This document shows, piece after piece, positions 3,679 through 57,675 of a DNA stretch of 64,000 nucleotides. The notes beneath the pieces were generated by a model, which made no database searches, had not been told where the DNA came from, and worked only from the letters and a program-made list of their open reading frames with translations. The position numbers and the translations under genes were made by a program. The stretch's first letter is position 1, and each line of letters starts with the position of its first letter. The stretch is from Elmis aenea (Eukaryota; Arthropoda; Insecta; Coleoptera; Elmidae): contig OX393581.1 in the NCBI GenBank assembly GCA_947652605.1, forward strand, positions 28,948,788 to 29,012,787. The letters run 5' to 3'.

Positions 3679-4997
3679 CAGGGTGTCCCAGATACATTTC
3701 CAGCATAGGGATTCGCTTATTATAATAAAAACAGGTTTGCTTAAATTAGATGCAATATTCTTAAGTATGAGAGGAGCTACAATCAATTTTTAAAAGTACT
3801 TCTACTTTTGTGTATTTTTTATGTAGAATGTAACTGTTATTTTAGATTTTTTGTATCACTTACCATTTTCGAGGTATTACCCCTTTTTTCTTATGGACCG
3901 CGAAGTTGGCTATGAAACAGTTAAATGTGTGTTTTTTTTTAAATGAGATATTACTTGCTATATCTATCTAATTTTATAAATAAGTCACAAAAACAAGAAA
4001 AATCGTACTTTACCCATCACTTATTGAGCTATCTATGAAAATAAAAACAAAAAACAACGAATTAAATGTCAAATGATAGTTACTATTTGTGTGGTATCAT
4101 TTATTATAATTTTATAGTATTGTTGTGTAATTCGATAGTCTTTGTAGAAAATTTGTCATCATATCATATAATTACGGACACATTTACAACTAATGAAAAA
4201 TTTGACATGTTTAGATGCTACATTCTTTGCCATAGAAACTGTGTAAAAACAAATATTTCTAGTTCTTCATTCATTTGTTTTGGATTTTCTCGAAGAAACC
4301 ATATTCTTTTAAATTTATTTCCAAATTTCAGTAATTACGCGCACTTCCTTGCCTCATCTCGCAATACAGCTCTATAAGTATATTAGCTCAGCTTCTACAC
4401 AGTTTTTATGGCAAAGAATGTAGCACCTCAATACGTCAAATTTTTCGTTATTTTTATAATGTAGCCATAATTATAACAATTACTACAAAGACTATCGAAT
4501 TAGAAATTACACATTAATACTATAAAATTATTGTAACAAATGATAACGCAGACAATTTATACTATTATACTGTCATTTGAAATAAGTTAGTTGTTTTTTG
4601 TTTTTATTTCATAGATAGCTTGATAAGTGATTGGTAAAATACGATTTTTCTTGATTTTGTGACCTATTTATAAAATTAGATAGATATAGCAAGAAATATC
4701 TCATTATAAAAAAGAAACACACACATTTAACTGTACCATAGCCAACTTTGCGGCCCATAAGAAAAAATGAAAGGGGTGATATCTCAACAATGGTAGGTGA
4801 TTAAAAAAAATATCTAAAATAACAGTATATTCTACATAAAAAAGTACACAAAAGTACAAGTAGGTACAAGTACTTTTAAAAATTGATTTTAGCTCTTCCC
4901 ATACCTTACTTAAGAATATTGCCTCTAATTTAAGCAAACATGTTTTTCTTATAATAAGCGAGATCCTAATGCTGAAAATGTTATCTGGCATACCCTG
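3679..4997. mobile_element. Foldback DNA element with CAGGGTG termini (1.3 kb)
   Basis: The two arms, about 3679-4249 and 4393-4997, are inverted copies with moderate divergence. They share, for example, GCTTATTATAA near each end and the GCTACATTCTTTGCCATA block at the inner edge. A loop of about 140 bp separates them. The termini are CAGGGTGTCCCAG and its complement, each preceded by TA. No transposase is encoded; the open frames inside are by-products of the palindrome. Confidence 0.85.
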
Positions 4998-6771
4998 TAT
5001 AAAATCAAAATTCGTACCTAAAATGGACTACTAAATATTTATCAAAATAAAACGAGAACGCTTAAGAAAGAATTCTAATTACACCAAAATTCAAAATACA
5101 ACTTATAAAACAGTTATAACATTAGTTTGGAGATTTGGATAAAACACTGTACTGTATTATAATTATAAAAAAAAATATTCTTGGCTATTATTAGCTCTTA
5201 TAGTCAGGTTATGATATTTTACAAACCTAAAGTATTTTTTTTATACAAAATATGCTGGCCGCTGGCGAAATGGTCGGATATTACAAACTTAAGATTTCTA
5301 TTTTTATTTTAACCTCCACTTCATCATCAGGTCAACGAACAATTTAGTTTTCTGAGCCGGACTGAGGGAGTGATTCATAAAATGATTTTAGCATTATTTT
5401 AAGGTGAATATGATATCGAATGTCCTCTGACGCCCCCTGCTGGAATTATAATAGCAGGTACTTTGGGGCTATGCAGAATTGTACGTGTTGTAAATAATAC
5501 GCTGTCACTTAATGATCAAGAGAAAAAATAATTCTCTTTTTTTTAATATTTCGATTGCACAAGGTGTTCACTTTTCAATTAGAACGCATTGTATCGACGA
5601 TAGAAATGGAAACAATAAAATGCAAGACAAATTGTATTGTTTTATTTAAATTATGACAAGATCATCTCTAATAACCGAGTATCACAAATGGTGAACGTTT
5701 AGTAAAAAAAATGTAATTATTCATGCAAAGTGAATTAAAATTTTGCCTTGTAATAACAAATTGTTAAATGGTGGGTTCGGGCACGTATTGTGGTTGTATA
5801 TATTCCGGCACGTTGAAAGGAAAGCTATAATATTCTGCAGTTAAAACTGATTATAACATTTGAATTGTGTAATAAATTGCGATTTTTGATGGATTGGCGA
5901 TAGAAATTCTGGAATGGGCAAACATAAAATTTTAGTGTAAACGTTTACAGAAACGTTAGTTAGATTTATCGTGGAAAAGTATTTGACTTAGAAACGCCTC
6001 TTTGACCTCAGATCGCCTACACACTGACAAATTGCTGACTTAGATAAAGATTTTAAATTACAATCAATATTATGAAAGGCTAACCTTCTCGCGGCCTTTT
6101 GTTTTAAATTTCGTGCCTATCACAACAGATAGAGATCAATTTATAACCATTACAATTAATGGCACTATAGAAACTGTGCAATTATGTTATTTATAATACA
6201 CAAATTTGCATATCTGAATGGTATCAAATTAATAAAAACGTGCCATTGTTATGAACCTTTTATACGTGTGTCTGGATAAGCACATTATGTAAACAATACC
6301 GAAAGTTTTAAAATGAAACCGCATTAAAAGAGAGAGGAAGAATAAATTAATTACAAAGCACGCGTTTTATTTGCAAGAAGATGAAGTTTCCTTGATTAGT
6401 ACGTTAATTAATTATCTGTAGTTTTACTTTTCAACAACGAACGAACTTGGATATTAATTAATTATATAAATACAATCTACGCTTCTAAAAACACCAAACA
6501 GAAATTTCGTATTCGTTTTAGGATTAATTAAGCATGATTCAGTTCAAAAATATTTGAACGATTGATGGGAAATTGAGATTAGGTTTGTAAATAATTTCGA
6601 TTATTTTATTTAGCAAACAAGATAGATAACATTTTTTAAAATCTTGCGAGTGACTTTTTTTGAGAAAGTTACAGATAAAGCCGGTAAATATTATGAAGAT
6701 CAATGAAATATTAAACATCTGGATTGTAATTGCCCATACGAAAGCCGCATAAAAAGACTACATTCACCTGT
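4998..6771. other. AT-rich intron, nothing definite
   Basis: No coding, RNA-gene or repeat structure was recognised. A short less AT-rich patch near 5255-5470 is not assignable. Confidence 0.4.
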
Positions 6772-6772
6772 T

Positions 6773-6805
<33 letters not shown>

Positions 6806-6806
6806 C
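6772..6806 (-). repeat. (TAA)n microsatellite tail of a LINE
   Basis: About ten TAA units, reading on the minus strand as AATAAAG followed by ATT repeats. This is a common 3' tail of non-LTR retrotransposons, and the LINE coding remnant lies directly upstream on the same strand. Confidence 0.75.
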
Positions 6807-8815
6807 TTTATTTGTTCTGAATATCCCAAAAAAGGTGTAGAACTTGTCACAATAATAATTTACGTACATTACAAATAATATACATAGTTAATAAAAAGGA
6901 AAAAACACAGAAAAATTATATTTAAATATAACATTTTATAAAGTCAGCATCATTTAAATATTCGCTTACTCCATAGTAAGCTTTAGAAATCAGAACTTTT
7001 CTTAATTTCTTCTTTAATTCGCGGGTGGGAAGATTTATTATACTCTCAGGTGATGTGTTAAATTTATTATACAGGGTATCCCAGCCAAGACGAATTATTC
7101 GATAACTCTGTTATTAGTAATAATATTAAAAAAAGTTAGATATAAAAGTTGTTTGTAGTCATTTACTACATAACCTAAAATTATTTTTAACTATACACAG
7201 TGTTTTGTTTTTGCGCTCTGATAGTAAACATTGTTTTTTTTATATGGAACACCCTGTATATTTTGGAATTTTTGGATGTAAAATTATATTCTCTTTCAAA
7301 AATATTATAGGTTGTTTATGTCTAAAATGAACCGTTTTTGAGTTATTAACGTTTTTTTTGAAAATTTTGACAGTTGCAGACCTTTATAAAAATATTTATA
7401 TTTATTAACGTAACAACACCAGAGCAATTTACTCTAGTAATTTATTAGACAATAGTGTCATAGTAATTGTTGACTAGTTACATTTTTAAAATAATATACA
7501 GAGTGTTCGTTATAGTCGGTCCATTTCGCTAAACTTTAAACGCATATAAATCTTTTTTTTTTAATGGAACACCCTATATATTTTTACATTTTCTTGTACA
7601 AAATTTAATTATCTTTCCAAGTTGTTAAGCATGTTTTATGTCTAAATATAATATTTTTGAAGTTATTTCGTTTCTTATGATTATTTGCGAGTATTTTACC
7701 TAAAATATCGGTAGTAGCCTTTGAAAATTCAAAATAATTTGTATAAACTGTCAACCAGAACAGTTAATCGGCACAATTTAAACTATTATGCCACTAAAAA
7801 TCCATATTTTTTAAGAGTTGTAGATACACAGCATAAATGGCAGCAAATAACACCAGAATGCTGTCTATCTACAGTTCTTAAAAAATATGGATTTTTAGTG
7901 GGGTAATAGTGGAAGTTGTGCCGATTAACTGTTTTGGTTGGCAGTTCATACAAATTGTTTTGAATTTTCAAAGGCTACTACCGATATTTTAGGTAAAATA
8001 CTCGCAAATAATCATAAGAAACGAAATAACTTCAAAAATATTATATTTAGACATAAAACATGTTTAACAACTTTGAAAGATAATTAAATTTTCTACAAGA
8101 AAATGTAAAAATATATAGGGTGTTCCATTTAAACAAAAAGATTTATATGCGTTTAAAGTTTAGCGAAATAGACCGAGTATAATGAACACCCTGTATATTA
8201 TTTTAAAAATGTAACTAGTCAGCAATCACTATGACATTATTGTCTAATAAATTACTAGAGTAAATTGCTCTGGTGTTGTTACGTTAATAAATATAAATAT
8301 TTTTATAAAGGTCTGCAACTGTCAAAATTTTCAAAAAAAACGTTAATAACTCAAAAACTGTTCATTTTAGACATAAACAACCTATAATATTTTTAAAAGA
8401 GAATATAATTTTACATCTAAAAATTCCAAAATATACAGGGTGTTCCATATAAAAAAACAATGTTTACTATCAGAGCGCAAAAACAAAACACTGTGTATAG
8501 TTAAAAATAATTTTAGGTTATGTAGTAAATGACTACAAACAACTTTTATATCTAACTTTTTTTAATATTATTACTAATAACAGAGCTATCGAATAATTCG
8601 TCTTGGCTGGGACACCCTGTATATAGCAATAATTGTGGAGGCAACATTTTTTTGAAGATAGGTATATTTGAAACAATCGGGTTTTAGGTTTTTTTTTTAT
8701 ATCGCGTATTGGCTGCATGATTTCTTATATTCTCTTCGAACAGATCTACATTATTTTTTACGAACAGGATGGCTTCGAGGATAAATAGACCGTAAAAGGT
8801 TAATATTTCGTATAT
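6807..8815 (-). pseudogene. LINE ORF2 C-terminal remnant, split by a foldback insertion
   Basis: Minus-strand coding remnants lie on both sides of the palindrome at 7072-8619. The upstream part (about 8815-8622) reads FVKNNVDLFEENIRNH-AANTR, with one frameshift in an A-run. The downstream part (about 7068-6940) reads NTSPESIINLP then ELKKKLRKVLISKAYY and ends in a stop. Together they match the order of the conserved C-terminal tail of CR1/Jockey-like LINE polymerases, where an NTR motif is followed by a YNKLP-type motif. The (TAA)n tail follows at 6772. The element is 5'-truncated and dead. Confidence 0.72.
7072..8619. mobile_element. Large near-perfect palindromic foldback element (1.55 kb) with CAGGGTATCCC/CAGGGTGTCCC ends
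   Basis: The arms, about 7072-7826 and 7867-8619, are inverted copies with high identity. The loop is only about 40 bp (near 7827-7866). Because of the symmetry, open frames at 7721-7906 (plus) and 7786-7971 (minus) give nearly the same peptide and are not genes. TA (within TATA) flanks both ends. Each arm also holds internal copies of the family's end motif, for example ACACCCTGTATA at 7250 and ATACAGAGTGTTCG at 7495, so the arm looks like several concatenated element ends. It interrupts the LINE remnant at 6807-8815. Confidence 0.88.
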
Positions 8816-9274: not shown

Positions 9275-10756
9275 GTGGCAGCCATGGCAGTCTCAGTTAT
9301 CCAAAGATTACAATAAATACAAATGAATATAACTATCTTATGCTGTGAAAGCATATCTAGAACTTTTTTTTGAAATTGCATACAAGTAAACAAGAATTGA
9401 AAACTTTGTTATTTAATTGTCTGTCATAATCTAGTGCAATGGAATATTTAAATAAATTAAAGTATATCGGAGTAAGCCTTGGACAGGTGATCACTAAGTC
9501 TAATTTGTAATTCTAAAAAGATCAAGATCCGTTTAGTTCCCTGGAAAAATAGAGATACTGTTTAACCAATAACTGTTTTATGAACTGATTCGTAACTAAT
9601 ATGGTATTTTTAGATTTCTTGGAAATTTCAATAACCATTTATGAATGGATTTTTATGGGCAACATCAATCCAATTATAAATTAAACAAAAGGTATGTAAT
9701 TTACATTGTTTTATGGACTACAATTTAGTAAATGTTGTAGTCTTGAATGCAATATCGGATGAAATATAACGTAAAATGGGGTAAGCACAGATTCACTTTC
9801 ATTCATTCATCCTTTATTGCATTTTATATTTGGTTATCTAATCTAAACACAACAGAACTGCAGGTTTAGGAACTAGTATGTAAATTCGGAGACATTATAA
9901 TATGAGCGAGCATGTGCCCGTACGAAAGATGGTCATGTTCAACAAAATGTGGACAAGCAATAATATTCGGTATCGCTCTATGACATTGTAAATGTTTTAA
10001 TCCTATAGGAAAACCGACAACTTTTTATGCAATGTCTTCATCCGTATAAACGTAAGTTACGAGTTCAAACTCGTTTTAAAAACTCCTTGGCTAAGTTGTT
10101 TTTAAGAATTGTGTCTTGACCATACAGGTAACATATTTGTAACTTCACTTTGCTTGTCATTTTTTAATCTTTCATATGACATTTGAAGTGACCGTCCGTT
10201 ATGCCCTTCACATTCAACGGTAAAAATTATACATTCATCTGAGAACCGCGACGAATTTTTGCTCTCATCGTGGTTTTAAAACTAGCCCTACCTCGACAAT
10301 TAAAAACACTCAAGAACCCGACTAAATTTGGATGCATATAGTCGCGCATAAATCTTCCACATTATTTAAGGGACAACTAAAAGCAAAATGTGAAGGATCA
10401 TAAAAGGATTATTTCGCTAATGGAATTAAGAAATTTATTTGTAACTGATTGTAAACTTTGAAATTGTTCTTCGGTGTTTTGTTTAATAGGTTAGTTTTTT
10501 TTTTTGCTAAGCACGACCATTGTTAGTTTAGGATAATTTGGCATATGGAGCAATGCGACTGGTCACAATTTCTAAGAAATTATGTCAACACAAATGAAGA
10601 ACTGCTGTTCCCTGAATAAATGACAAGAATTTTGGGCGGCACATTATACTTTTTCATTGTTTGTTCGAGTTACACTAATTAACTCAAATATTCGAGATCG
10701 AATTGACATAATTATCCAAAGCGGAACAATTGAGTTAAAAGAAAAACGAAACTTAC
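9275..10756. other. AT-rich intron, nothing definite
   Basis: No gene or repeat structure was recognised up to the donor site of the cadherin exon. Confidence 0.4.
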
Positions 10757-10958
10757 CGGAATCCAAGTCTGTAGCGCTGACGACAACAACAGGTGTAGCT
10801 ACAGAGATATTTTCGAATATTTCGTTACTGTACGACATCGGATCGAAAAGGGGAGCATTATCGTTTAAATCCAGTACGTTACAGTAAACTGTTAATGTAC
10901 TTGAAAGTGCCGGATGACCTGCGTCCTGAGCTTGCACCACCAGAATATAATGCTGAAC
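10757..10958 (-). CDS. ds: Cadherin-repeat exon of the same Dachsous-like gene (next internal exon)
   Basis: This 202-bp exon encodes 67 full codons plus one base. The acceptor TTTTTGTTACAG ends at 10959, and the donor GTAAGT starts at 10756 on the minus strand. It starts in phase 0, matching the phase-0 end of the exon at 42442, so LDYEE runs straight into VQHYILVVQAQDAG. That reproduces the canonical end of a cadherin repeat. Further calcium-site motifs are AQDAG, DLNDNAPLF (linker to the next repeat), the FENIS glutamate and ATDLDSG, where the final glycine codon is split (phase 1) to an exon beyond the window start. The stretch YCNVLDLNDNAP is what I associate with Dachsous. An open frame continues beyond both splice sites and on the opposite strand, but only the bounded part has cadherin character. 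Confidence 0.87.
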
Positions 10959-11071
10959 CTGTAACAAAAAAGGGATATTAACACTCTCATTAGTTATTAG
11001 TTTTAAAAAGGCTATTCGAAGAGACGAGAGTCTCGAAACTAGTCTAAAAGTTTGTTTTGGCAAGGCTATGT

Positions 11072-11150
11072 ATGATCCGATGAACGATCAGCATTTTGCG
11101 CAGTACCTACTGATTTCGCGTTTCAGCAGTCTCTGATAGTTCATCGGACG
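11072..11150. repeat. Imperfect hairpin within the intron
   Basis: CCGATGAACGATCAG (11072-11086) pairs with CTGATAGTTCATCGG (11136-11150) with one mismatch and a loop of about 49 bp. No flanking duplication was seen. It may be a tiny TIR element or a chance inverted repeat. Confidence 0.45.
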
Positions 11151-13518: not shown

Positions 13519-13534
13519 TAAAGAGTGTTTCAAC

Positions 13535-14970
13535 CAGGGATGGAATAACGTTTTAAATCGTTACGTTATTGAATAACGTTATTTATTATTTGTTTTCGTT
13601 ACATAACGTTATAAATAACATTAAAAAAATGAATTGTTATGTTATATAACGTTACGTGAAGAATTATATACAGGGTGTTTCTTAAATAATGCGAAGAAAC
13701 TCGGGAGTTGATTTCTTATCAAAAATTAGGTGGGGTATTTTTAATAAATTTTTTTTCTTTAACGTCTCCTTTCGGAGTTACACCTCCCTAAAGGGGAGCA
13801 GTAAAATTGGGTTTTTATTTTATTTCTCAAATTTAGATAAATGTAGGAGAATGATATTTTGTAGATGTTTTATACTTATTAAAAGGTTTCCCATAGTAAT
13901 ATTTTCAATCATCTCCCACCTTCACAGGGGGCTGAAAAGTGCGACCCCTGTTGGTTTTTTATTCAGAACCTTTTGGTGAGTTGAAATTTTGCAATTTTAA
14001 CATTTTTTTTTGTAAGTTTGATTTAATTAGAACCTCTTTTTATTCCTTAGTTTTTCTCGTAAATCCTACAGTTTTGAGTAAAAAATTAAATGAGTGAATA
14101 TTATGTTTATGTTCATATTGGGTAAAATTGACGGGCGTTTTAGCGTCAAAATAAATTACACCCGTCACTTCTACCCAATATGAACATAAACAAACTATGG
14201 TACCATCATTCATATAATTTTTTACTCAAAAACTGTGGGTTTAACGAGAAAAGTTAAAGATAAAAAAACTTCTAAATAAATCAAATTTTCAAAAAAAAAA
14301 AATTAATTGCTAGATTTCAACCCACCAAAAAGTTCTGATAAAAAAACCAACAGGGGGCGCACTTTTCAGCCCCCGGTGAAAGTGGGAGATGATTAAAAAT
14401 CTTACCTACTGTGAGAAACCTTTTAATAAGTATAAAACATCTACCTACCTAATATCATTCTCCTACATATTATCCAAATTTGAGAAATAAAATAAAAACC
14501 CAATTTTACCGCTCCCCTTTAGGGGGGTGTAACTCCGAAAGAAGGCCTTAAAGAAACAAAAAATTATATGACCCCTCTTGATATTCAATAGGGAATCACC
14601 TCCCGATTTTTTTCGCATTATTTAAGAAACATGCTGTATAAAAATAATTTTTATTTGTAACTCTGAAATTATTTTTGGGATCTGTAAATGTAAATTTAAA
14701 AAATGGTACAAAATTAGTTTGAAATATTTTATTTTCATTTTAATTTCTAAAATAATAGACAAAATATATCTTCGGAAAATAAAAAGATCGCCATATAAAA
14801 ATTTAATTTATAGAGAATAACGATACAAAATAACAATTAATGAAACGTTATCGGTTATTATAACGTTATATAACGTTATAAAAATATCGTTACGTTATTG
14901 TATAAAACATTATAGTTGAATCGTTATTATAACGTTATCGGGTATCGTTACGTTACGTTTTCCATCCCTG
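13535..14970. mobile_element. Non-autonomous hAT element, 8-bp duplication GTTTCAAC
   Basis: The termini CAGGGATGGAATAACGTT and (inverted) CAGGGATGGAAAACGTAACG are flanked by perfect 8-bp duplications at 13527-13534 and 14971-14978. Subterminal sequence is full of ATAACGTTAT-type repeats, typical of transposase-binding arrays. No transposase is encoded. It sits inside the left terminal repeat of the mariner relic and itself carries a nested foldback. Confidence 0.92.
13671..14636. mobile_element. Foldback element nested in the hAT (CAGGGTGTTTC family, copy 1)
   Basis: The left arm starts CAGGGTGTTTCTTAAATAAT and the right arm is its inverted copy ending near 14636; both are flanked by TATA. 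The arms share the block with AGGGGAGC and the GTGGGAGATGATT region. The centre is palindromic around an ATTGGGTA..TACCCAAT motif near 14117-14170. The open frame at 13689-13979 is an arm sequence and not a gene. Confidence 0.87.
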
Positions 14971-15077: not shown

Positions 15078-15808
15078 ATGAAGAAGAACACAATCGCAGA
15101 ACGCATAAAAATCGTTGAATTTTATTTTGAATATTCAAGTTCTTTCATAAATAGAGTTCGCAAAGTTTGCGCATTTTTTCCAGATAATCGTGTACCAAAG
15201 TACCAAGGGAAACCACTATTCGGAACCTAATGAAAAAATTCAAAGAGACCGGTTCACTACAGGATTTGAAGACGCCAAAGCCCCCTCGGATTTGCCGTTC
15301 AATAGACAACATTGCCGTAGTGAGTAAAAGTGTCGAAGAATGTCCAAACACGTCAATTTTTTGAAAACGATGCTGGAAGGGCTGTTTCGGCCAATGGAGT
15401 GCGCTATTACGTCATGTTGACCAACTTTTTGTGGACTGAGCTGGAAATAAGGATATTGCGGACCTATACTTCCAACCAGATAATGCCAAGTGCTATCCAA
15501 GTGGCGAAATAATCACTTTATTGCGTTCCAAGTTCCCAGGTCGTTTGATTTCGAGAAATTGCGACATCAATTAACCACCAAGCTCATGCGATTAGAGACC
15601 ATTGGAATTTTTTATTTGGATCTATAATGAAGGAAAAGTCTATGCCAATAATCCACAGTCAATTCACGTTGTCAATGTCAACATCGAAGCAGCTATTGCT
15701 AAGAGAGCCGGATTTTTGCGAAAAAATGACAAAAACTTCAATAAAGGGGTGGCGGTCCGTATAAAGAGCCGAGACGGACATTTGGATGATGTGGCATTCT
15801 ATACATAA
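15078..15808 (+). pseudogene. Tc1/mariner (IS630-like) transposase pseudogene with internal deletion
   Basis: The product would be a DDE transposase that cuts and pastes TA-flanked elements. The N-terminal block (AERIKIVEFYFEYSSSF) and the second block in another frame (FKETGSLQDLKTPKPPR, then SIDNIA) match the helix-turn-helix region of a transposase type common in insects. The frame then jumps from PNTSI straight to FENDAGRAVSANGVRYY, so roughly a hundred central residues, including the first catalytic aspartate, are gone. The second aspartate survives in QPDNAKC. The third lies in RPLEFF, where this type usually has PLD. Stops also occur at DIN*PP and SCD*. It cannot be active. Several frames are needed to read it, so coordinates mark the outer limits. 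Confidence 0.85.
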
Positions 15809-24096: not shown

Positions 24097-24097
24097 T

Positions 24098-42441: not shown

Positions 42442-42675
42442 CTCTTCATAATCAAGTCTTGCTGTCAGTGTAAAAACTCCTGTTTGTGGATTAAGTGAGA
42501 AGACATCGTTGGCCCAGTCGCTGATAACTGTGTATGTCAACTGGGCATTGATTCCTAAATCTGGATCAGTGGCGCGCACTTGACCGACCCGAGATCCGCG
42601 TGCCGCATTTTCTGGGATATCGAAGGAATACGCACTTTCGGAGAAAACTGGCGGATTATCGTTGGTGTCGGTCAC
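42442..42675 (-). CDS. ds: Cadherin-repeat exon of a Dachsous-like giant atypical cadherin (internal exon)
   Basis: This 234-bp internal exon encodes 78 residues of extracellular cadherin repeat. Reading on the minus strand, a pyrimidine-rich tract ending in TTTTCAG precedes the first codon at 42675, and GTAAGT follows the last codon at 42442; the exon begins and ends in phase 0. Visible calcium-binding motifs, in order, are DTNDNPPVF (inter-repeat linker), the PENA glutamate, ATDPD, and LDYEE at the very end. Such proteins are single-pass membrane adhesion molecules; Dachsous pairs with Fat to set planar polarity and growth. The exon continues directly into the one at 10757-10958. The Dachsous assignment rests on resemblance recalled from insect Dachsous around the DWANDVFSLNPQTG stretch. 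Fat-like or another large cadherin is the alternative. Being an atypical-cadherin exon is near certain; the exact gene is likely but not proved. Confidence 0.85.
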
Positions 42676-45155: not shown

Positions 45156-45780
45156 ATGGTAAGAAATTATAAGAGAAACAGCGACAGAGCAACCAAATAT
45201 ATCGCCAAAAAAAGAAGAAAAAAACCAAAAAAAAAGACGATGGAAAAAACGAGGACAAGTAAATTACCATAGAAATGTTTTAGTAGCTTGAGCTCAGAAG
45301 AAGAAGAAATGGTAGAACCATTACCTATTTATAGATACAGACGACGATTTGGACACTGAAATATGTGAAGACGAAGACCAAACGGATATTTACGAAAAAT
45401 ACATAAATTAGATGGAAAAAACAGAGGTAAGAAAAGAAGAATTCGGTAAAATTAAAGGGACAACAAAATCACGACAGAAAACTTTCAGCAGCTCAAGCTT
45501 AGAAGAAGAAATGGTAGAACCCAATTTTGTAGAATCAGCAAATGATTTAGTCCCTGAAGTATTCGAAGAAAAAGACAAGACGAACGTCAACCAAATGGCT
45601 GCCGGGAGTTGGGTTATTGCAGAATACAACTTCAAAAAAAGCACTAAACATTACGTTGGATAGATTAAAACCAGGTCAGGAATCCAATAGAATGTTCTAT
45701 TCTTGAAATATAGGAACAATAATAGCTTCTTTTGGCCACAATTGGAATACGAACACAATATAATTGACATAGACATTATT
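45156..45780 (+). pseudogene. Pogo-like transposase remnant (N- and C-terminal pieces)
   Basis: The ATG at 45156 opens MVRNYKRNSDRATKY, the hallmark start of many pogo/Tigger-type transposases, followed by a lysine-rich run. A later frame (45412-45663) has an acidic, serine-rich linker and ends in GSWVIAEYNFKKSTKHYVG, which resembles the short C-terminal domain of insect members. The DNA-binding and DDE catalytic core between them is missing. An AGAAGAAGAAATGGTAGAA block occurs twice (45295 and 45500), so the linker is partly duplicated. It is not functional. Confidence 0.65.
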
Positions 45781-46289
45781 ACGAATTTTGTCGGAACCAG
45801 TTAAGAACCGAAGAAACAATTTTATGTTTAAGGGGGAACTAAAGGCACGCAATAAAACAGCTTTCGTAGTTCAAGTTTTTCTCTCACACTAATTATCCAA
45901 AGTACTTAAAAATTTGTAAGTAAAAAGATTTTTGGTTCGAGAATGGCGGTACAGGCTCGATTTTTAAAAAAGTTAATACTGTTAAGCATAAAAAAATATT
46001 AAAAACTGGCTAAAAATTGACGTCTGTTTACACCATCAATATTTGTAAATTATTGGCTAAAATTAAAATATCGTCCTGTACCGCCGTTAAGGAACATGTT
46101 TTTAATAATTGTTGTTAATTTGAAATAAATTTATTCACAATCTTTTTCTAAAAACTTGAACTAAGAAACCCATTTTTTAAGGAAATTTCACTTGTACTTT
46201 CCGAAGCGAAGGCGCTGCAACACCCCACCATTTTATCGCCGTATGTCTGTTCTACAACATTATATCTACAACACAAAAAATGACAGGAA

Positions 46290-47190
46290 AATCTAAACGT
46301 CAATTTATTTTTATAGAATCTATACCATCTCTTAAAATCGAAGGGAAAATGTCGGCTCCCAATAACATGTCTATTTTACGTGGCGTTCCAAATTGTGGGT
46401 CTGCCAACTTAAGGTTTGTGGTATGTGTCCAATTTTCCGAATTAGTTGTGGACGGCATTTCCGTACATACATGCGGCAAAATCATGAAGTCGACATTAAA
46501 TTTAGGTTCCTCTTTGTCTTTAGGTTTAAGAATACATGTGGTAAAACTGGTAGATTCGCACGAAAAGGTACGATTCAAGCCATGGATGGGAATATTTACT
46601 GAGGCTCGGGACAGCCCTAATTTCTTAACGCAACTATCAGTACCTAATAAAATTTGTCTGACTGGCACTATCTAATAATACACGAAGCGTTTGATAATTT
46701 CCCCAACAGTCTAACACATCAACTAAGGCTGTCGATAACAAAACAGTGTTTCGAGATGAAGAGGTGTCGTTAAGCTATTGACTTGATTCAAAAGTATGTT
46801 TGGAGTTTCATCCAAAGGTGAATGAGTAATTTCCGATTCTTTACTCGTAGATACGTGCTCGGATGAAGACCATTTGATTTTGTTTTCAAAGTGAAATAAG
46901 GTATCATGCCTGCTATAGCAAATACGACAATTTAAAGTTGAGTTACAATCCTTCATTTTATGAAACGAGCTCAAACAATAAATACAAAGGTTTTTGCCTT
47001 TAATAAATAAAAAATTTATCATTTGTGGTTTTTTCAAGAAAATTCGAACATCTATGAAGTGCGTGTGGCGACCGACAACAAAGACAACTACTATTATTTG
47101 CGTTTGCTACAAAAGAAGCGGTTGAATTTAAAATTCGATTAGACCAACTGGTTCGATTAGGCGATAATACGACATGATTTGTTCGACTTT
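46290..47190 (-). pseudogene. BEL/Pao LTR-retrotransposon gag-protease fragment
   Basis: On the minus strand the end of a gag-like protein comes first. CRSPHALHRC (about 47085) is followed by CIYCLSSFHKMKDC and CRICYSRHDTLFH (about 46985-46900), the cysteine/histidine cluster typical of BEL/Pao elements. Downstream (46668-46300) lies the aspartic-protease-like region, with ILLGTDSCVKKLGL, NIPIHGLN, FMILPHV, LADPQFGTP and LLGADIF. The protease active site, normally a DTGS-type motif, reads GTDS here. Frames are broken between the two parts, and no reverse transcriptase, integrase or LTR was found. It is a dead internal fragment. Confidence 0.8.
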
Positions 47191-47194
47191 TCTC

Positions 47195-47340
47195 CGTTTT
47201 TTTGCCATTAAAAATAACGGTTTCGGTTTCTGTTAAAAATCACTTTTACGGACAAAAAATAACGGTTACCGGTTTTTTTAATAACGAAAAAAATAGTTTA
47301 TGGCATCTGTCTTCCAGGGCATGTATTCTGTGTTTTGTGT
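47195..47340. repeat. Possible hAT end with CGGTTACCGG motifs
   Basis: AACGGTTTCGGTTTCTG and AACGGTTACCGGTTTTTT lie side by side directly after the BEL/Pao fragment. Such motif pairs are usual near hAT ends, but no partner end or duplication was found. Confidence 0.35.
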
Positions 47341-48165: not shown

Positions 48166-49334
48166 TTACCTTGTTTTTAAAAAAATTGTACCTAATTTTA
48201 ACTTGAGATGTTACGCTTTCTTTAAATAAACCAGTTAGGAATTTTGAGCGATGCGGTTCTAGATATTTTCTCGCTACATAAACTGCATCACATTGGTGTC
48301 ACCAGTCACCACTATGAAGTATCTTAAGATTATTTGTCGCAGCAATATTAGTCTTTGTTTTTATAGACTTTATTAACGCAATCAATAGTTAATAATCTGC
48401 TTATTGCATATTCTTAATGTAATTCCCAAAAAAGATAAAGATGAAAAATTTTGCATATTACGTTTTGGATAATGTAGTCCCTTCCCACACATCGAAAAGA
48501 AAAATAACCGTTTGTTTGTTTATTTACATACGTTATATAAACATTTCTCATGTTAGATGTCCATCAAGACGAGTAAACATGGCAATCAATGTCCAGGCCG
48601 CATAAAAACAGCAACAAATAAAACAATATTATAAATAGTAGAAAATTGATTACAATCATCATGTATGATCGCATCAGAATTTTTACACATCTACACATGT
48701 CATTCCTTATAAATTCGTATCATTAATAACCACTAATCATCATCTACCCGTCATGAGAATTTTTAAATTCTTATACAATACCTAGTGCAATACCAGATAT
48801 GGAATCTGTTAAAAATTAAAACATATCGCGATAGCCAGTAGAAAATCGACGATTAATCACTTGACCGAGACTTAACAAGGAGTTACTTACATTGATTGAA
48901 TGTGCAGGGAAATGTCGATAATGTAAGGCGAACCAGACAAGCAAAACGCCGCGTGAAACTTCTAGGAACATCGAAACTCAAACTTGTTTTGTTTTCAGAA
49001 AAGTATGCTTGTGTTATGATGTAAGATTTTTAACTTCTGTGCACAAACGTTAACAGTTCATTACAATGGTAGATAAGTTGCATGGGTAAAAATTGTATAA
49101 TTTTTTAACACTTCACGTGCACAATTTGTGAAACAAAGAGTGTATGTGACCATGAAGAAGATGGAGATCTCGTAAACCGTAAGAAATGAAAGAATATTTA
49201 TTTTAAAACGTACTTTCATGTGCTTAGTTGGAGCAGCTGAAACTGAAAATGTGCATATTGTGCTCAGTGGCAAAAAAAAAGTGGAATTTTAAAATGTTTT
49301 TCTACTACCACTGATGTAAATGACTCTTACCGTA
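48166..49334. other. AT-rich intron, nothing definite
   Basis: No coding or repeat structure was recognised. Confidence 0.4.
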
Positions 49335-49592
49335 CAGCCTGCATGTATAGTAAGTGAGTCCTAACGCACGGTAAGCAAAACGCACACTTGGCTAGAAAGA
49401 TCGAAGTAGCCTTACGTCAAACACTGCCTGCATGCATGTAGTAAGTGAGTTATAACGCACGGTAAGCAAAACGCACACTTGTCTAACGTCAAAGTAGGCT
49501 TACGTCAAAATTGACAAGACAACGTAATTACATGTGTGTATAAGCCAAAAAGTAGTTATAATCGTATGTATTATGTGTTCGTAGAAAAAGTA
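49335..49592 (+). repeat. CAGCCTGCATG element end with an 89-bp tandem duplication
   Basis: TACAGCCTGCATG starts a stretch whose unit, including CTAACGCACGGTAAGCAAAA and GCTTACGTCAAA, is present twice in tandem (from 49338 and 49427). One copy of the same sequence lies at 56384-56558. No inverted partner was seen. Confidence 0.65.
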
Positions 49593-50329
49593 GGCTACAT
49601 AACTCGAGTTGTAAAGCAATTACGCACTCACTGCTACGCGGCTCCGTGCGTAATATTATTCATGGTTACAATAATCTAAATCGCTAAGCGTTGGTAAAAC
49701 AAAATCAATGTGCTTTTTTTTTCTATAAAAATCGAAAAAAGTCATCTCTTGCTTAATTTAAGAAAAGCAACAAATTTGATTTTTTAACGACATAAACCCT
49801 CTTTAAAAAATAAATTAAACCAAGCTTAATTACAAAATTAATATTTCATATTGTGTTTATATTTTTAAATCTAAGCTGTGTATCGTTAAATTGAAAACGT
49901 TTCTTTAATACCTGAAAAGGGAAGTAAAAAATATACTTATTTATGACTACAAGTAAAACTGTGCATAATGTTGTGAATACATACAAATTGACCACAAAAA
50001 AATTAAAGGCAAAAGTTATTTAAGCTGTTAAATAAGTAAAACAAGCGGTGCATTTAAAAACAATAAAAAGTTACAACACGTTGCAATTCGTCAAAGAAAC
50101 ATTATTCAGCACTTCTGTTTCTGAACTAATTTTGTATCGTTGCAACCAAAATGAACAACCGTTAAGTATATTTATTTCAGTGGAAATTTAAAAAAGTTTG
50201 CGGTAACGGTATTTATACTGTTTACTTAGCACCTACGTCAACATCTAAACAAAAACGATTTTAAATATAACTGAAAAATCATGTTAATCCATTCCTAACA
50301 TATTTATTAATATCGATTTTTTTAATTAA
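49593..50329. other. AT-rich intron, nothing definite
   Basis: No coding or repeat structure was recognised. Confidence 0.35.
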
Positions 50330-50879
50330 ATCCCTTTAATAGTAATTTCATACGGTTTACTCACCTGCTTCCTCGAAAAAAGGGACAAAGACAATTATTT
50401 ACCATGCCGATTAGGATTTATTTTAAATAAAATATTTGTTTTTGCCATTTTTAACAACAATTGTTTCAAAAAAGTGCCAACTGTTATACATTGTCGAATT
50501 TAGAATAAAATGCTCAACAAATTGGCGTTAAAATCAGATATAGCGTCCATAAGAAAAAATTGACCTGATGATGGTTTTAAAAAAACGAAACGTCGCACGA
50601 AAAATATAATTGGGGAATTTGATTCCTTGCAAAAAGTGGCCATGGAAATGTTTTTACAAAAATGAAATTCGAGATCAAGTGAAAAAGTTACGGGCAAAAA
50701 ACAAAAATCCACTTTTTTACTTTTTTCCCTATATCTCAAAAACTAAAAGAGCTAGATAAGTTCTGTTTGCATCAAATTATTAAGCACCTAAATATACAAC
50801 TTTGCCCTAATTTAACCGAAGTCGTAACTCTTACCGTTTACGAGATCCCCATAGTGGCCCGCGAAAAACGAGAACCCTG
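50330..50879. mobile_element. Partial copy of the CAGGGTTCTCG element, inverted relative to 38787-39320
   Basis: It ends CGAAAAACGAGAACCCTG next to TA at 50880 and shares AAAACGAAACGTCG, ATATAATTGGGGAATTTGATT and CAACTTTGCCCTAATTTAAC with the other copy. The left terminal repeat is missing, with the sequence fading near AATCCCTTTAATAG at 50330. Confidence 0.78.
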
Positions 50880-53233
50880 TATATCGCTAAATATTGAGAT
50901 AAAAAAAAACTTTAAGTGGACATTACTTTTATTGATATTTTTAGGACAAGAATGTATTATGTAATGAATATTTTTGCAGTGAAGTTTGAAAAATATTTAC
51001 AGGTACATCAATTTTTCAGTAACTGATGGTCCGGCACCTCTTTTAGTCCGTGTAGGGCGCACTTTTTTACATCATTTACACTGCACTTGTTAGTAGCGAT
51101 ATCTCAATTTTGTAAGATTCTTAACTTAGTTTGCTTAAATTTAACCTTAATTAATTCGGTGGGGCTTTGAAACCAAGAGTGTCGGGAATTCGATATTGTA
51201 CCTTTACATGTATTTATTATCAATGACTAGCAAAATCAATCGTTTCCCGCTCAATGTCACATAATTTATATTTTTACTAATTTATGTATCTTGATTTGCT
51301 AAGTAACTTTCATTTCATTCTTTTAAAATAAAAGTTAAAACATAGAAAAATTTAAACAACGTTTAACGTTAATGTATCACGGTAATAAAGGTTCATCTTT
51401 CAAGTTTACTTTTTAATAACCTTATAATTTAGGCTACACCTCATATTTTGTTTTACTGATATTATTAATGTCCTTAAGAAAGCCATGATCTTTGCGTAAT
51501 AAAATTTCTGTGCAAAATGCTCCAAGCAAATGTCCTCAATTTTGAAAAAAATGCAAATGTAATGTTGCAACTACAATTTACAATAAATCATAGATAGAGA
51601 GACGTTTAACCCAATTAAGTACAATTAAGTTTTTCGACAATGCAACTATCAGTTGGTGTTGACTATCTCAAGGTGATTTACAATCTATAATTGGTTCATA
51701 GTAGGATTTATACCGAGTGTATTACCATAATTAGTTTATCTCGTATCATTTCCACTCTATAATTAATAAGACAGGCTGCCACTAGCACTCAAGGAAGTAA
51801 ATGGTTCGCGATTATCAGTCGTGGCTGCGATCGAGCTATAGAATTTTTTGAGTTATTTTAAAATCGGTTGAACGAATAAATAAAATGCTGCGGAATTTTT
51901 CTAATACGGGAATTACATAATGCAGAAATAATCCTTGCATATAATCAATAATTAAAGTTCTTCGCTCTCATGGTGAGTATGATATCTGCCACACTATCTA
52001 TCTGAGTGACAGGTATGATAGAGTACCGTGCAGCGGCTGTTGCTCGGCGGTAGATGTACATAAGCAGTTCCGCATTTCTGGTCTTAACTATTTGTATTTA
52101 ACTACAAAAGTTTTATATTCCCTACTCATCTTTGACTATACATGCCTCTACGGCAATATACATACAGCTGGACTATTTCACGGTTTTTTTTTACGACTAT
52201 AAACCACTTTAATAAAGTTAATTACAAATTTCACAATGTGTAATCGTAAATTATAAATCCTAGGTTGTCCTTACAAAATAATGGCATTTAAAGGCAACGA
52301 ACCAATTAGATCCAAAACAGTGATAAGCAATTAGAATTTAGGGCAGGTCTATAGTTTTAAATAATCTATAATGTGACGTACTGTAGTATTAATACAAAAC
52401 AGACATAATAGACTTGACAATTTTTAAGAGATTACCGTAAGAAAATAATTGAGAAAATTAGTAATGAGAGAGCCAGAAATAAAACTTTATAGTTTAATGG
52501 ATGTGATATTTGGTGCTGAAATGATAATTACACGAGAATAGTGAAAAGTAAACGTCCTGCAAAACAAAATACTCCAACAAGGACAAAATTATTAAGCCCA
52601 CACGTATCAAATGTCCACAACAAGGTGTTCTAAACAAGCACTAAAATGCATATCCAAGGAAAACCGCAGTATTTAGAGGTTCATAGAGGACAGGATAGCA
52701 GCTCGAGTCGGAACATGCAAGGGGGCTTAATCCTTGAAGTAGATAATGATGATTAGTTATCCATAGAACATTAAAAAGTATATTACAAATCGCGTGCGTA
52801 TAGTTGATATCTTAACAACTAATACAGAATCCTTTGCATTCGTTTCTAAGGGATGGACGAATACTGAATCAGACGAGTATGGAACCAGATTTTCCACCGG
52901 AATTAACATAAAATGAAAGAATCCGTTTCCACGCCGAATCTGATACATGAACAAATAAAATTTAACCAGAACTTTACTAAAAAGCTTTGTTGGCAGAAAC
53001 TAGAGAAGAGGTTAGGAGATTTGTTTAAAAAAGGGAAGTCACCTTCCATTAAAACATCAAGTAACTTCAATTCTGGTAATCGATGTCTTTTTTGTCCCTT
53101 TTCCGACGATTCACTAACATTCGATTTAGCAAAAAACTTGTACAGTGTTGTCTGTTTCTAAGGTTTCGTCACGGATATTGGACTTTTGAACGAATATCGA
53201 AGCATTTTTTTGCTGGAAAAAATTGACGAATAT
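50880..53233. other. AT-rich intron, nothing definite
   Basis: An 82-codon plus-strand frame (52913-53161) is unrecognised. Nothing else was seen. Confidence 0.35.
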
Positions 53234-54125
53234 TGAGGCGGACAAATCTAAAGTTTCCACACAGAGTATCTCCGTTATTATCAGAGATAGAAAAAAACTA
53301 AGTGCGTAGTCTCGATTTCTTTTTCAAGAGGAATTCATTGCCGTAAACAGATTTTTAATATCTTTTTTAAATTTCGAAATATGGCCAAAAACCGATTTTT
53401 GTCAATTTTCAAAAATGTTAAATATCTCGCTTAAACAAAAAGATAGAGAAAAACATTAAATACATTTTTGGCATGTTTTTTTTGTCCTTAATAAGATAGC
53501 GATGTTCAATTTTTTTTTACTGATATAAATATACATATATTACACATAACTTTCTTATTTTAAATGGCAACCGTAAGCAAATTATATATTTTTGAAAAGC
53601 GCAAAAAATAAGCTTTCGATTCATATCAAAGTCAACTATAATTGCCTTTTAAAATAAGAAAGTTAGATGTAATATATCAATGTTTGTACAAGTAAAAAAT
53701 AATAATTGAACATTGCTATCTTATTAAGGACAAAAAATTATGCAAAAAATGTCTAAAGTTTTTTTCAATCTTTTCGTTTAAGCGAGATATTTAACATTTT
53801 TGAAAAGTGCCATAAATGGTGTTGGCTATATTTCGAGTATTAAAAAAGATAATTGAACATCGGTATCTTATTAGGGACAAAAAACCATGCCAAAAATGTC
53901 TTTAAAGTTTTCCTCTATCTTTTCGTTTAAGCGAGATATTTACCATTTTCGAAAAGTGCCAAAAATAGGTTTTTGCTTATATTTTGAAGATTATAAAAGA
54001 TATCAAAAATCTGTTTACGGCAACGAATTCCTCTCGAAAAAAGAAATCGAGACTACTTACCTAGTTTTTTTCTATCTGATAATAACCGAGATACCCTGTA
54101 TGGGCATCGAAAATAGGTCACCCTG
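53234..54125. mobile_element. Foldback element (0.9 kb) with a double CCCTGTA right end
   Basis: The arms meet near 53600. Shared inverted blocks include AAATCTGTTTACGGCAA, ATATTTAACATTTT and TCTTATTAAGGACAAAAA. The right side carries two end motifs, ACCCTGTA near 54093 and CACCCTGTA ending the element at 54125. The left end is weathered, and its limit is approximate. Confidence 0.78.
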
Positions 54126-54700
54126 TACAATGAAATTAGTTTCTGAATAAAACAGATATACAAAAAATTATAGAGAGAGAATTATATATCATTCATCATT
54201 GAGCCGTATAATCCTAGGGATTATGGCTAACGCCAAGAGTGTATATAAATGGTTTAATATAACGTATTTAAATTTTTATTTTACTTTTTTTTCAGCATTT
54301 TCCGATACCGCTTATACTTACACACGCCTACACATTAATGGAAACTTATGTTATTTTTGATTAAAATCTATAAAACTTAATAATTACGTGCAAATGCAAT
54401 ATAATAACTTTCACTACTAATAATAGGAAACGTACATTACTGATAAATAATTAGCTAACAATAATTAAAACTTTAAATTTATTAAGGACAGCAAAAACTA
54501 CAGACTGCATTACTGAATAGAAGTTATTGATTAAATTATTATAAAATGATAATTTTAATGTTGAAAAGTTAATAAATATTTAGTATGTATTAGTTTTTTA
54601 GAGATATTGAAAAATTAAAATTCCTTAATGCAGCTGACTTGCAGTAATTTTGATATGCATTTGTTGTGCCGTATATTAAAATCCTTGACAGTTGGTTATA
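54126..54700. other. AT-rich intron, nothing definite
   Basis: No structure was recognised. Confidence 0.35.
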
Positions 54701-54708
54701 CATGTTGT

Positions 54709-55415: not shown

Positions 55416-55824
55416 CATGTTGTAAAACTTAACCTTCACGAGATGCTCTTTAAAAACGTGGATTTATTAGCCTTAACCTTATATTACAGCATGTACAAGA
55501 TAACGTAACCCAAAAAAAATAATGTAAAATGGAAGTTAAACTATTTTACACGTTTATTTAATTATAGTAAATTGATTTATTATTAAAAACAACCTTTCAC
55601 AATTTAAACTAATTCATTTCCACAAATAGGGAGAGTTAATGAAATCAACTTCATTTATAAATGATCGTACACGATTGTTATTTTGAGTGGGCATAATGTA
55701 GTTGGCGCCGTTAGTTGTCAACAGGGAAATGATAAAAATTAATATACAATTAATAAATTTTGTTAACAGTTATCACTTATTCTTCTGCTACCCGTCAGAA
55801 AATTGCTACTAAATATATTTATCT
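55416..55824. other. Intron stretch, nothing definite
   Basis: It begins with the right duplication of the hAT and has no other recognised structure. Confidence 0.35.
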
Positions 55825-56381
55825 CAACAACAAATAAGAAAACCTTGGTAATTTGTACCACATGACCACATGAGTTTTATAAGGTTTTACACCTTGTTTT
55901 TTTTGTTTTCACAGCCTACTATGATTTTCTTTTTAAAAAAACTGAAAAGCCTTCGTAATTTGCGTATTATTGAAAATAAATACAAGCCTTATATATTTGG
56001 AATGAGAAAAAAATAAGGAATTTAAATAGGTCTTAGCCAACTATCGTTCCCATTTAAAAAAAGGTAAGTTTGTGCCATAACGCCATACGGCGAGCGTATT
56101 TTTTTTTGGTAGTATAATCCAATTAAACATAAAAATATCTAAAAATAATCTCCTTAATTTTTTTCGATATTTACAACAATAACGGAGATATGGACACATT
56201 ATTAATATGACAAAAAAACACTTTTTATTCAATATCTCGAAAACCGGAGGTGATAAAATATTTTTGAAAACGGTTTTGAGTTTGTCCCAAAAAACTGCAC
56301 ATTTTTGGTAATTTAACCGTTTCTCTATCTTAAATATTAACCGAGATACCCATGCAATGCCATCAAATTTGGACCACCCTG
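55825..56381. mobile_element. Half copy (right arm only) of the foldback at 36739-37945
   Basis: It runs from CAACAACAAATAAGAAAACC through TTACACCTTGTTTT, ACACATTATTAATATGAC and AGATACCCATGCAATGCCAT to CCACCCTG, in the order of the right arm at 37388-37945. The left arm is wholly absent. TA follows at 56382-56383. Confidence 0.85.
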
Positions 56382-56383
56382 TA

Positions 56384-56558
56384 CAGCCTGCATGCATAGT
56401 AAGTGGGTCCTTACGCACGGTAAGCAAAAAGCACACGTCTAGAAATGTCAAAGTAGGCTTACGTCAAACTTGACACTTAACAGCGTACCTACAAGTGTGT
56501 TTACTATTAGCCAAAAAACCGATAAAATCGTATGTATTATGTGATCGTAGAAAAAGTA
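56384..56558 (+). repeat. CAGCCTGCATG element end, second genomic copy
   Basis: It matches the second unit of 49335-49592 (CTTACGCACGGTAAGC, GCTTACGTCAAACTTGAC, ATCGTATGTATTATGTG). It begins immediately after the TA shared with the half foldback ending at 56381. Confidence 0.7.
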
Positions 56559-57675
56559 TGCGTAATATGCTTCTTACAATTCTTGTTATGTAATATACTA
56601 TGAAAAACACAAGTAAAAGTGTAATGAGATTTTTATGGTCAAAATTTTTAAAACTTATTTGATTGTTTAAACTGAATATTCTAACTTAATTTTGCTGATT
56701 TTTAATTTATGTTGATTGCATTCCACATTTTTGTAACTTTCACGTTGCGGTTCATTACCCAACAGTTGTGAGGGCAAAACTATTAAACTTGACGTCTCAC
56801 ATGCTCATATTCTTTATCGCGCAGAGGCGTTACTTTGGTCAATTGGATTTTATTTAATTTATTACGAATTATTTTATAAAGTTCCAAGTAGATATAGTAA
56901 ACACTTTCATTTATAACGATAAAGTTTAATAGTTCTATAAATTAATGTGTAAGATACGAGCGGTTATCTTTCATTTTAATCACAGCCAATTGCGAAAAAG
57001 TATTTAATTATAATTTTTACGATTGTCTCTTTCACAATTTACTTAAGGGCAAGAAAGAAGGGATGTATTACGGATAAAGCAATACTTTACATGCTGTTTT
57101 CATTTCGAAGAACACTTATATTTTCTAACGCTAATATCTCCTCTTTTGTTTACGATAAACCTAACATTAGGTACGAGAGGAAGTTGTATTGATTGGGACA
57201 GTGCATTGGAAACATGAAGAATAAAAAAGAGTATTAGAAGAGTATTAGAAGAGTATAGGAATAGGAAACGCTAATGCAGAGTTATGCAGAATTTAATTTT
57301 GCACTAGAAAATGAAAAAAAAGTGGGCATTTTATTTGAAAAATACGAGTTTTTGTGGTCCGAAGTTGTATTAAAAGAAAATTAAATTTTGGACACCCTGT
57401 AAGTAATGCATCGATTTCAAAAATTCCAGTAAACTACAAGGTTTCTTCTATGCATAGTCTCAATTTGAGCATTTGCTCTACAAAAATGGCAGCGGTAGAT
57501 AATATTATAAGCATCACGATGAAAATCAAAAATTTTTCAAAAAAGTCAAAAAATCTAAAAAACGACTGCACTGTATAGTGGTAATGTCTTATGACATAAC
57601 GACCCTTCTATTTTCATTGACTAATTCTTAAGTGAGTCATAAAACAAACATAATTTTTATCAAAAAATCGAGGTA
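56559..57675. other. Intron stretch with one solo CACCCTGTA end
   Basis: TTTTGGACACCCTGTA ends at 57401 without a left partner. The rest is unremarkable. Confidence 0.35.

Follow-up and report, generated by a model that had tools for sequence, protein, structure and literature searches.

Foldback elements sharing a TA-CAGGGTG end in the genome of the beetle Elmis aenea are very probably derivatives of diverged DD41D Tc1/mariner transposons

A 64,000-nucleotide stretch of the Elmis aenea genome (GenBank assembly GCA_947652605.1, contig OX393581.1, positions 28,948,788 to 29,012,787; hereafter the window, 31% GC) carries long palindromic, or foldback, elements whose ends share the box TA-CAGGGTG. 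We conclude that these elements are very probably non-autonomous foldback derivatives of diverged Tc1/mariner lineages of the DD41D type (DUF4817 plus DDE_3 domains, LTIR-like) that have kept TA-CAGGGTG or a close form of it. Judged from their sequences, autonomous-looking parents with these ends and with DD41D spacing are shown to coexist in the same genome. A set of odd palindromes becomes in this way a tractable system, in which one genome has the parents, their derivatives and also the end box that both conserve; it bears on how long foldbacks can be born from ordinary Tc1/mariner elements, as in the case of element E1 below, and on how a transposase clan can hold an 8-base end while the remainder diverges.

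A short end box recurs in the window and throughout the genome

On both strands of the window, TACAGGGTG was present in 17 exact copies, compared to 0.25 expected from a second-order Markov model, and was the most over-represented of the window 9-mers with a count of at least 8. TA lay directly 5′ of CAGGGTG in 17 of 18 window copies, and in 59 of 85 copies when the window was pooled with loci L025 onward, which were picked via transposase matches and include related copies, compared to a background of 8.8%. In the source genome (516 Mb in 302 contigs), exact TATACAGGGTG occurred 90,756 times (43,880 + 46,876), whereas the same sequence read backwards occurred 359 times (180 + 179). The shared end and its flanking TA, both noticed in a first-pass annotation made from the window's letters, are thus real and genome-wide. 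That annotation had also held that the elements share only this end and have unrelated bodies; the bodies are not all unrelated, however, and most elements have one exact end. At this scale, a single clan could be annotated as many families that look unrelated.

Autonomous-looking parents encode DD41D transposases

We searched the genome for Pfam matches, read the candidate loci and inspected their ends. Six autonomous-looking copies in five lineages were found, confirming that transposase-coding copies with the shared ends exist, four of the lineages having CAGGGTG. L091 is 2502 bp long, with terminal inverted repeats (TIRs) of 593 bp (97% identity) and the end CAGGGTGTCCCAGATTAC; L096 is a second copy of this lineage, partly read. 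L088 (2537 bp; TIR 633 bp, 99.8%) ends in CCGGGTGTAACTG, of the CCGGGTG type, L089 (1897 bp; TIR 117 bp, 91%) in CAGGGTGCTTAAAAAATGGCGG, L102 and L106 (2102 and 2107 bp; TIR 281–283 bp, 96–97%) in CAGGGTGAGGCATC, and L104 (2262 bp; TIR 366 bp, 97.5%) in CAGGGTGTTGCGATATTC. Each of the six copies is bordered by TA on both sides, as for IS630/Tc1/mariner elements, and has a transposase frame that is open from stop to stop (346–399 codons), with 41 residues separating the second catalytic D from the third, the DD41D spacing. Transposase identity was 35–44% between lineages and 96% between L102 and L106. DUF4817 and DDE_3 scored above cut-off in all three proteins scanned, to which L102, L104 and L106 are linked by the 35–44% identity. 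The first-pass idea of a common machinery stands to the extent that one kind of transposase, with DD41D spacing, is found in each fully read CAGGGTG-type parent; that this machinery reads only a very short end is improbable.

In a 35-sequence tree, three lineages (L091, L088 and L089) and 20 homologues formed a clade of 23 that contained no other included Tc1/mariner protein of the source genome. Similarity to L091 retrieved 1,345 homologues; among the 120 matches listed, the catalytic motif was present in 90, with a spacing of 41 in 87 of these. L086 and L088 share 99.6% identity across 2,137 bp, and nine genome profile matches have equal E-values and scores, with open frames of 351–357 aa; together, these observations are hints of recent transposition.

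Two further types with the 41-residue spacing (L100/L103/L105 and L101) have TIRs of 23–33 bp, end in AAAGGGTG or ATAGGGTG and resemble rosa; the L100 and L101 transposases are 28–33% identical to those of the CAGGGTG-type lineages. Eight more loci beside DUF4817 matches were sampled on their 5′ sides, and CAGGGTG was found in three of them (L108, L110 and L114, the last two belonging to the L102 lineage). At 60 loci (L025–L084), the best terminal repeats mostly had other ends and three loci had no TIR; at some, such as L067, CAGGGTG copies lay nearby or hosted the insertion. L085, L087, L090, L092–L095 and L097–L099 were rejected as parents, being other Tc1/mariner types or having no matching ends. 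A protein search for relatives elsewhere gave one confirmed match among genome contigs, in a bacterial metagenome-assembled genome (23% identity), and none confirmed in viral contigs.

E1 and E2 contain matches to DNA of the parental type

E1 (3677–4999) is an asymmetric foldback with ends TACAGGGTGTCCCAGATAC and TACAGGGTATGCCAGATAA and a self-inverted match of 80%. Its left segment (window 3676–4248) can be aligned in pieces to L091, starting at the end of that element (L091 position 72) and reaching position 886, and its right segment (window 5008–4246) aligns in the same manner from L091 position 63 to position 1041. The ends of E1 are 79–88% identical to the L091 TIR over 126–140 bp, and the arm segments are 70–72% identical. 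Because the L091 start codon lies at 812 and the repeated part ends by ~707, both segments pass through the TIR and into the gene; they stop at about codons 25 and 77 and abut at ~4246–4248 with no other DNA between them. Searches with the L091 protein by tblastn located an N-terminal DD41D transposase fragment on the left (4180–4248, + strand; 74% over 23 aa, E 4.5e-7) and an N-terminal fragment with stops on the right (4286–4458, − strand; 79% over 28 aa, E 7.4e-10, with a further piece at 2.6e-7). As read from these alignments, E1 is made of two 5′ segments from the L091 lineage that meet tail to tail.

E2 (7070–8621) is a full-length palindrome with internal motif pairs, ends TACAGGGTATCCCAGCC and TACAGGGTGTCCCAGCC, and arms that are ~95% identical and separated by a 23-bp spacer. 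The GTATCCC (7070) and GTCCCAG (8621) sequences, which had been taken for two families, are the left and right ends of this one element. The tip of the left arm has a short DD41D transposase match, TVNRHNLNYYATKNPYFLR (7760–7840, + strand; best tblastn E 5e-4), and the tip of the right arm has an inverted match (7858–7932, − strand; best E 0.002) that depends on the left one, as the arms are 95% identical. One or both tips were matched at E ≤0.01 by 8 of 128 transposase queries and by none of the 128 queries when reversed. The matching segment, TVNRHN.NYYATKNPYFLR, comprises 27 residues and falls around residues 153–196 of DD41D proteins. The E2 arm also shares 48 bp at 83–85% identity with L102/L106/L110/L114 and 47–50 bp at 86–87% with the arm of L088. 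On the simplest reading, E1 and E2 would be inverted duplications of the 5′ part of a parent rather than captured DNA. Thus, a family with its own autonomous parent and long family-specific repeats, the situation that the first-pass annotation considered incompatible with its proposal, was found for five genome lineages; among window families the connection is direct for E1, through L091, and consists of shared arm DNA for E2.

In the mechanism we propose, the transposase would cut at the TA/CAGGGTG box and read lineage-specific inner sites. Cut-and-paste excision would supply DNA breaks, repair of such a break could fold back and copy the parent's 5′ part in inverted form, giving a palindrome, and this two-ended palindrome might then be moved in trans and multiplied. 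Families with no known parent may have arisen likewise. In yeast, one study describes a foldback mechanism by which broken DNA acquires inverted duplications of very short length (PMC11724301).

Window elements and the relatedness of their bodies

The window holds six long foldbacks with box ends (E1, E2, E3, E8, E9 and E10) and a seventh element, E7, with arms of only ~103 bp. Both ends are exact only in E7; in E1, E2, E3, E8 and E9 one end is exact and the other altered, and the left end of E10 is eroded. Palindromy extends over nearly the whole length of E2 (95%), E3 (82%) and E8 (80%). E3 (13669–14638), of the GTTTCTTAAATAATGCG family, has an altered right end, CAGCATG, and E9 (40717–42146), of the GTTTCG family, has arms of ~505 and 491 bp (83%) around a 430-bp centre. 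E7 (35092–35719) has TIRs of ~103 bp beginning GTGTATAAATTGGCGG, the outermost ~24 bp of which are similar, by eye, to the L089 end. E8 (36737–37947) has the two-box end GGTCCAAATTCGATGG...GGGTATCTCG, and E10 (about 53257–54127) has an E8-related body and, at its right end, TACAGGGTGACCTATTTTCGATG...GGGTATCTCGG.

Half and solo copies are present, as had been claimed. E5 (23588–24098) is a single arm of the E3/E9 family that matches the arm of E9 at 85% across 520 bp and bears a CACCCTGTA of its own on its inner side; E11 (55815–56383, − strand) is a one-arm partial copy of the E8 family (80% to E8 over 582 bp). D1 (38785–39322; TIR 43 bp, end TACAGGGTTCTCG, second box by eye) and D2 (50377–50881, − strand; a partial copy 86% identical to D1) belong to the TTCTCG family, which had been listed among those ending in CAGGGTG but terminates in CAGGGTT. 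Two GAGTCA-type ends in the same orientation (21760–21890, + strand; at 21760 and 21882) lie 122 bp apart, and L076 holds a matching pair 121 bp apart in which the second is GATTCA. X380 (38088–38420, + strand) is a degraded two-box end, TATAGGGTGGACTAAATACG...GGTATCTCGGTTA, whose inner limit we set arbitrarily, and the lone end CTTACAGGGTGTCCAAAATTT (57393–57401, − strand) is of a type also present in L019.

The bodies of these elements are partly related, and in a large group the ends share a second, fixed box. With up to two mismatches, GG-ATCTCG was found at offset 32 or 33 in 14 of 52 exact ends from fetched loci outside the window, which were chosen non-randomly by transposase or pattern matches and include both ends of L091 among the 14, and in 3 of 17 exact ends within it; the flank (−50 to −25) gave 0, stretches further inside gave at most 4 of 52, and other offsets gave one more outside the window and one more inside. 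In the genome, exact two-box ends of the form TACAGGGTG-N20-26-ATGGGKATCTCG numbered 11,217, compared to 0 for the reversed control. Scans of viral contigs gave 16 stretches with TATACAGGGTGTCCC and no two-box end. The claim that only the terminal box is shared fails for E1 (right end), E8/E11, E10 and the end at 38088, all of which have the second box ~32–33 bases in, as do D1/D2 by eye. The match between the E8 and E10 bodies scored 65 bits, above 120 shuffle comparisons (≤42.5) and 32 non-element segments (≤36.8). E8–D1, E8–X380, E10–D1, E2–X380 and the same-family pair E3–E9 also exceeded all 120 shuffles; against the 32 non-element segments, the excess was clear for E8–E10 only.

Insertion at TA, nesting and pairing of ends

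L106 is inserted in a copy of the E3 family; when its two flanks are joined, the resulting sequence aligns through the insertion point to five uninterrupted E3/E5/E9 arms of the window (E 2e-26 to 3e-18, identity 67–72%), giving a paralogous empty site. The alignment is what insertion at TA would give, with divergence too high for base-by-base proof of duplication. L089 and L104 were rejected as empty sites, their joined-flank alignments being unclear at the junction or of low complexity. The outer end of E11 abuts TA in a repeat also present at 49332 (49332–49422 compared to 56381–56469). This ~90-bp repeat, CTGCATGCATAGTAAGTGAGTCC..., occupies 49332–49595, in tandem at 49332, and 56381–56561, where it borders E11. 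At L067, L100, L101 and L106, other or related transposons lie inside or beside CAGGGTG-element sequence, and nesting is therefore recurrent. Among 100 listed two-box places there were 20 neighbour pairs within 3 kb, compared to ~5.5 expected in any orientation; 13 were + then −, 4 of which span 1512–1515 bp, 4 were − then +, and 3 were + +.

Weighing the derivation from DD41D parents against alternatives

Several observations weigh against deriving all of these elements from DD41D parents. A direct parent match exists for E1 only, E2 having relatives only, L088 and L102/L106. The match in E2 is short, at 27 aa, and came from 8 of 128 queries; another query, P0053, matches a retrotransposon in the window at E 0.004, presumably by chance, making the E2 match modest evidence. 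None of the 128 queries matched E3, E5, E7, E8, E9, E10, E11, D1 or D2 at E 0.01, and the loci read included no parents for the GTTTC, GTGGTCC, TTCTCG and GTGAGTCA families or for the E3/E5/E9, E8, D and GAGTCA window families. One of the five lineages, L088, has CCGGGTG rather than CAGGGTG, and the eight DUF4817-adjacent 5′ sides included three with other GGGT-type ends and two with none in the expected direction. The tree clade has moderate support (0.825), its homologues were collected by similarity to L091, and L102 and L104 were compared pairwise only. Finally, most other body pairs did not exceed shuffle level; E8–D1 and E8–X380 (38.3 bits) were marginally over the best non-element match of E8 (36.8), and E2–X380 (46.8 bits) was under that of E2 (52.5).

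In an alternative explanation, which we consider improbable, one machinery reads the 8-base end alone, so that any DNA caught between two ends becomes a new element. It would suit the GTTTC, GTGTATAAATTGG, GAGTCA and GTCCAAAA families, which by eye have little in common beyond the box, and the majority of cross-family body pairs that do not exceed shuffles; short-end reading might apply to E3/E5/E9, E8, D and GAGTCA, with no parent among the loci read. However, each of five lineages has a parent and TIRs of its own, a second fixed box marks a large group of ends, and the bodies that were traced consist of parental DNA, clearly for E1 and by a short match for E2, so that repeated capture of new DNA between the same ends, as the first-pass annotation had suggested, appears wrong or unproven. 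E5 could also be cited, as it has one long family-specific end and another sharing only TACAGGGTGTTT with it, but this inner end may be a copy of an inner motif, as in L088, L104 and E2. There is only a slim chance, similar to that of the short-end explanation, that E1 and E2 are each a pair of deleted copies inserted separately in inverted orientation. The segments of E1 do end at different points in the gene (codons ~25 and ~77), but they abut directly with no intervening DNA, the E2 arms are ~95% identical with 23 bp between them, and no end motif with up to one mismatch was listed inside E1 or closer to the centre of E2 than 7578 and 8114. Least plausible, and in our judgment very improbable, is a convergent origin of the end, in which the palindromes would be foldback transposons of a separate kind, either Galileo/Foldback (FB) or Mutator. 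Their long palindromic arms and the internal repeats that recur in them recall Foldback elements, but E1 is made of L091-lineage DNA, E2 has a DD41D match, and the parents with the same ends are DD41D elements with TA borders, although no P-type or Mutator-like element (MULE) profile search was made. We therefore favor derivation from DD41D parents, and hold both this reading and the array interpretation below slightly less firmly because of weak controls for the E2 match and for the 64-bp units.

Recurrent spacings of internal motif copies

The most intriguing part of these elements is the recurrence of end-motif pairs at spans of 64, 82 and 187–189 bp. The arms of L088 and E2 contain an inverted end-motif copy at a span of 187–189 bp, and the L104 arm has a direct copy ~110 bp in; each E2 arm also has an 82-bp inverted pair (7497–7578 on the left, 8114–8195 on the right). 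A search for TACAGGGTGTT-N30-60-AACACCCTGTA, which covers spans of 52–82 bp, matched 2,945 genome places, compared to 0 for the reversed control; among 50 distinct listed places, the span was 82 bp in 29, 64 bp in 19, and 80 and 70 bp in one each. The fetched sequence held 30 motif pairs of 40–260 bp, several being the two arms of one element, and their spans were 64, 82 or 187–189 bp in 19 and other lengths in 11. Pairs of 51–82 bp were rejected as tiny mobile elements, as the 64- and 82-bp units often lie ~300 bp apart among the places listed and also occur within E2 arms.

The arms might be spaced arrays of one transposase site, forming a multi-site end code like the inverted repeat/direct repeat (IR/DR) arrangement that would permit several DD41D transposases to move palindromic derivatives across lineages; we regard this as a tentative idea that is rather unlikely to hold. 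If true, such a code would explain the spread of the end box to ~90,000 exact sites in the 516-Mb genome. Ungapped comparison of 82-bp units from three sources gave 68–73% identity, in each case higher than in any of 1000 shuffles of the interior. Six comparisons were made for 64-bp units: two were above all shuffles, two ranked at 15 and 3 of 1000, and two were at chance level. Scrambling the motif 30 times gave a mean of 1.1 pairs, but one scramble gave 26 compared to 17 for the true motif. Both of these controls tell against a stronger claim. Because family copies inherit lengths by descent, functional spacing is only a suggestion.

Relation to known transposons

The comparisons in this section draw on passages of the cited papers. 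DD41D Tc1/mariner elements, including the long-TIR LTIR/Lsra type, are already published (PMC5490172), and the traced cases look like one clan within a known kind of transposon, as opposed to unrelated elements with a bare shared end. In our view, what is new is the breadth of DD41D lineages that keep one end box, the foldbacks formed from 5′ segments, and the motif arrays of recurrent spacing. Searches of open-licence literature, with subscription papers, Repbase and supplements outside their scope, found no account of foldback derivatives of DD41D elements or of CAGGGTG as a shared DD41D end.

The aphid LTIR-like DD40/41D elements (Apismar5, and Lsra of Zhang et al. as cited there) are Tc1/mariner elements of >2 kb with TIRs of ~460 bp (PMC5490172). 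They resemble the E. aenea elements in superfamily, in DD41D and in having deleted derivatives that are miniature inverted-repeat transposable elements (MITEs), but they end in TCACCAATTTAGGG and AATGTGTCAAAC (TCACC/AATGTG, as opposed to CAGGGTG/CCGGGTG here), and the passages describe no foldback derivatives (PMC5490172). TIR length exceeds 460 bp in L088 (633 bp) and L091 (593 bp) and is below it in L104 (366 bp), L102/L106 (281–283 bp) and L089 (117 bp). The rosa elements (Crmar2-like, Apismar4) are also DD41D, with TIRs of 27–32 bp, and the Apismar4.1 end, AAGGGTGTCTC, resembles the (A/T)AGGGTG ends of L100/L101 (PMC5490172). Short TIRs of ~30 bp set rosa apart from the CAGGGTG-type parents, whereas those of L100, L101, L103 and L105 measure 23–33 bp.

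Similar ends occur in other insects. In Rhodnius prolixus, MITE_83.0 ('Tc1-like ?'; 489–1073 bp, 11 copies, no parent assigned) ends in TACAGGGTGACCAGAG and is likened to our elements by end and size alone; two mariners of that species start with CAGGGTG, and a MITE of uncertain class with TACAGGGTGACC (PMC4678618). Bee maT elements start with CAGGG in all cases but are DD37D rather than DD41D, and DD41D/VS is known from bees (PMC8472432). Rice Stowaway MITEs, which lie at TA and have very short TIRs, form numerous families and are mobilized by mariner-like Osmar transposases (PMC3660474); these mobilizers are plant mariners and the MITEs are orphans with no cognate parents, whereas parents are present here for some lineages (PMC3660474). 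Galileo of Drosophila is Foldback-like and belongs to the P-element superfamily, in contrast to the Tc1/mariner affiliation here (PMC3573991, PMC4168063). The parents in all five of our lineages encode DD41D proteins rather than a P-type transposase, although no P-type profile search was made.

Other features of the window

A decayed transposase fragment with stops lies at 15392–15742 (+ strand), outside recognized CAGGGTG elements; its closest tblastn query was the rosa-like DD41D transposase of L100 (37% over 110 aa, E 4.7e-19). A palindrome at 62827–63542 (82% over ~720 bp) has a different end, ACAAGGGAGGGTGACGATATG, and no CAGGGTG; it has relatives at 18064–18596 and within L107, and L033 shows a similar end. 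An array of TGATTTAAATCA-like palindromes at 22580–22707 adjoins a TACAGGGTTAAGC end at 22721. On both strands of the window, TAACGTTAT (complement ATAACGTTA) occurs 15 times compared to 1.34 expected, an 11-fold excess. A non-long-terminal-repeat (non-LTR) retrotransposon at 27721–31454 (− strand) has an endonuclease/reverse transcriptase frame of ~890 aa and an upstream frame with a PRE_C2HC domain, and frames at 45408–47239 resemble, by eye, a BEL/Pao retrotransposon fragment. Cadherin-like frames with LNDNAP and TNDNPP motifs, also identified by eye, lie on the − strand at 10644–11087 and 42412–42720, and the window may lie within the extent of a long animal gene.

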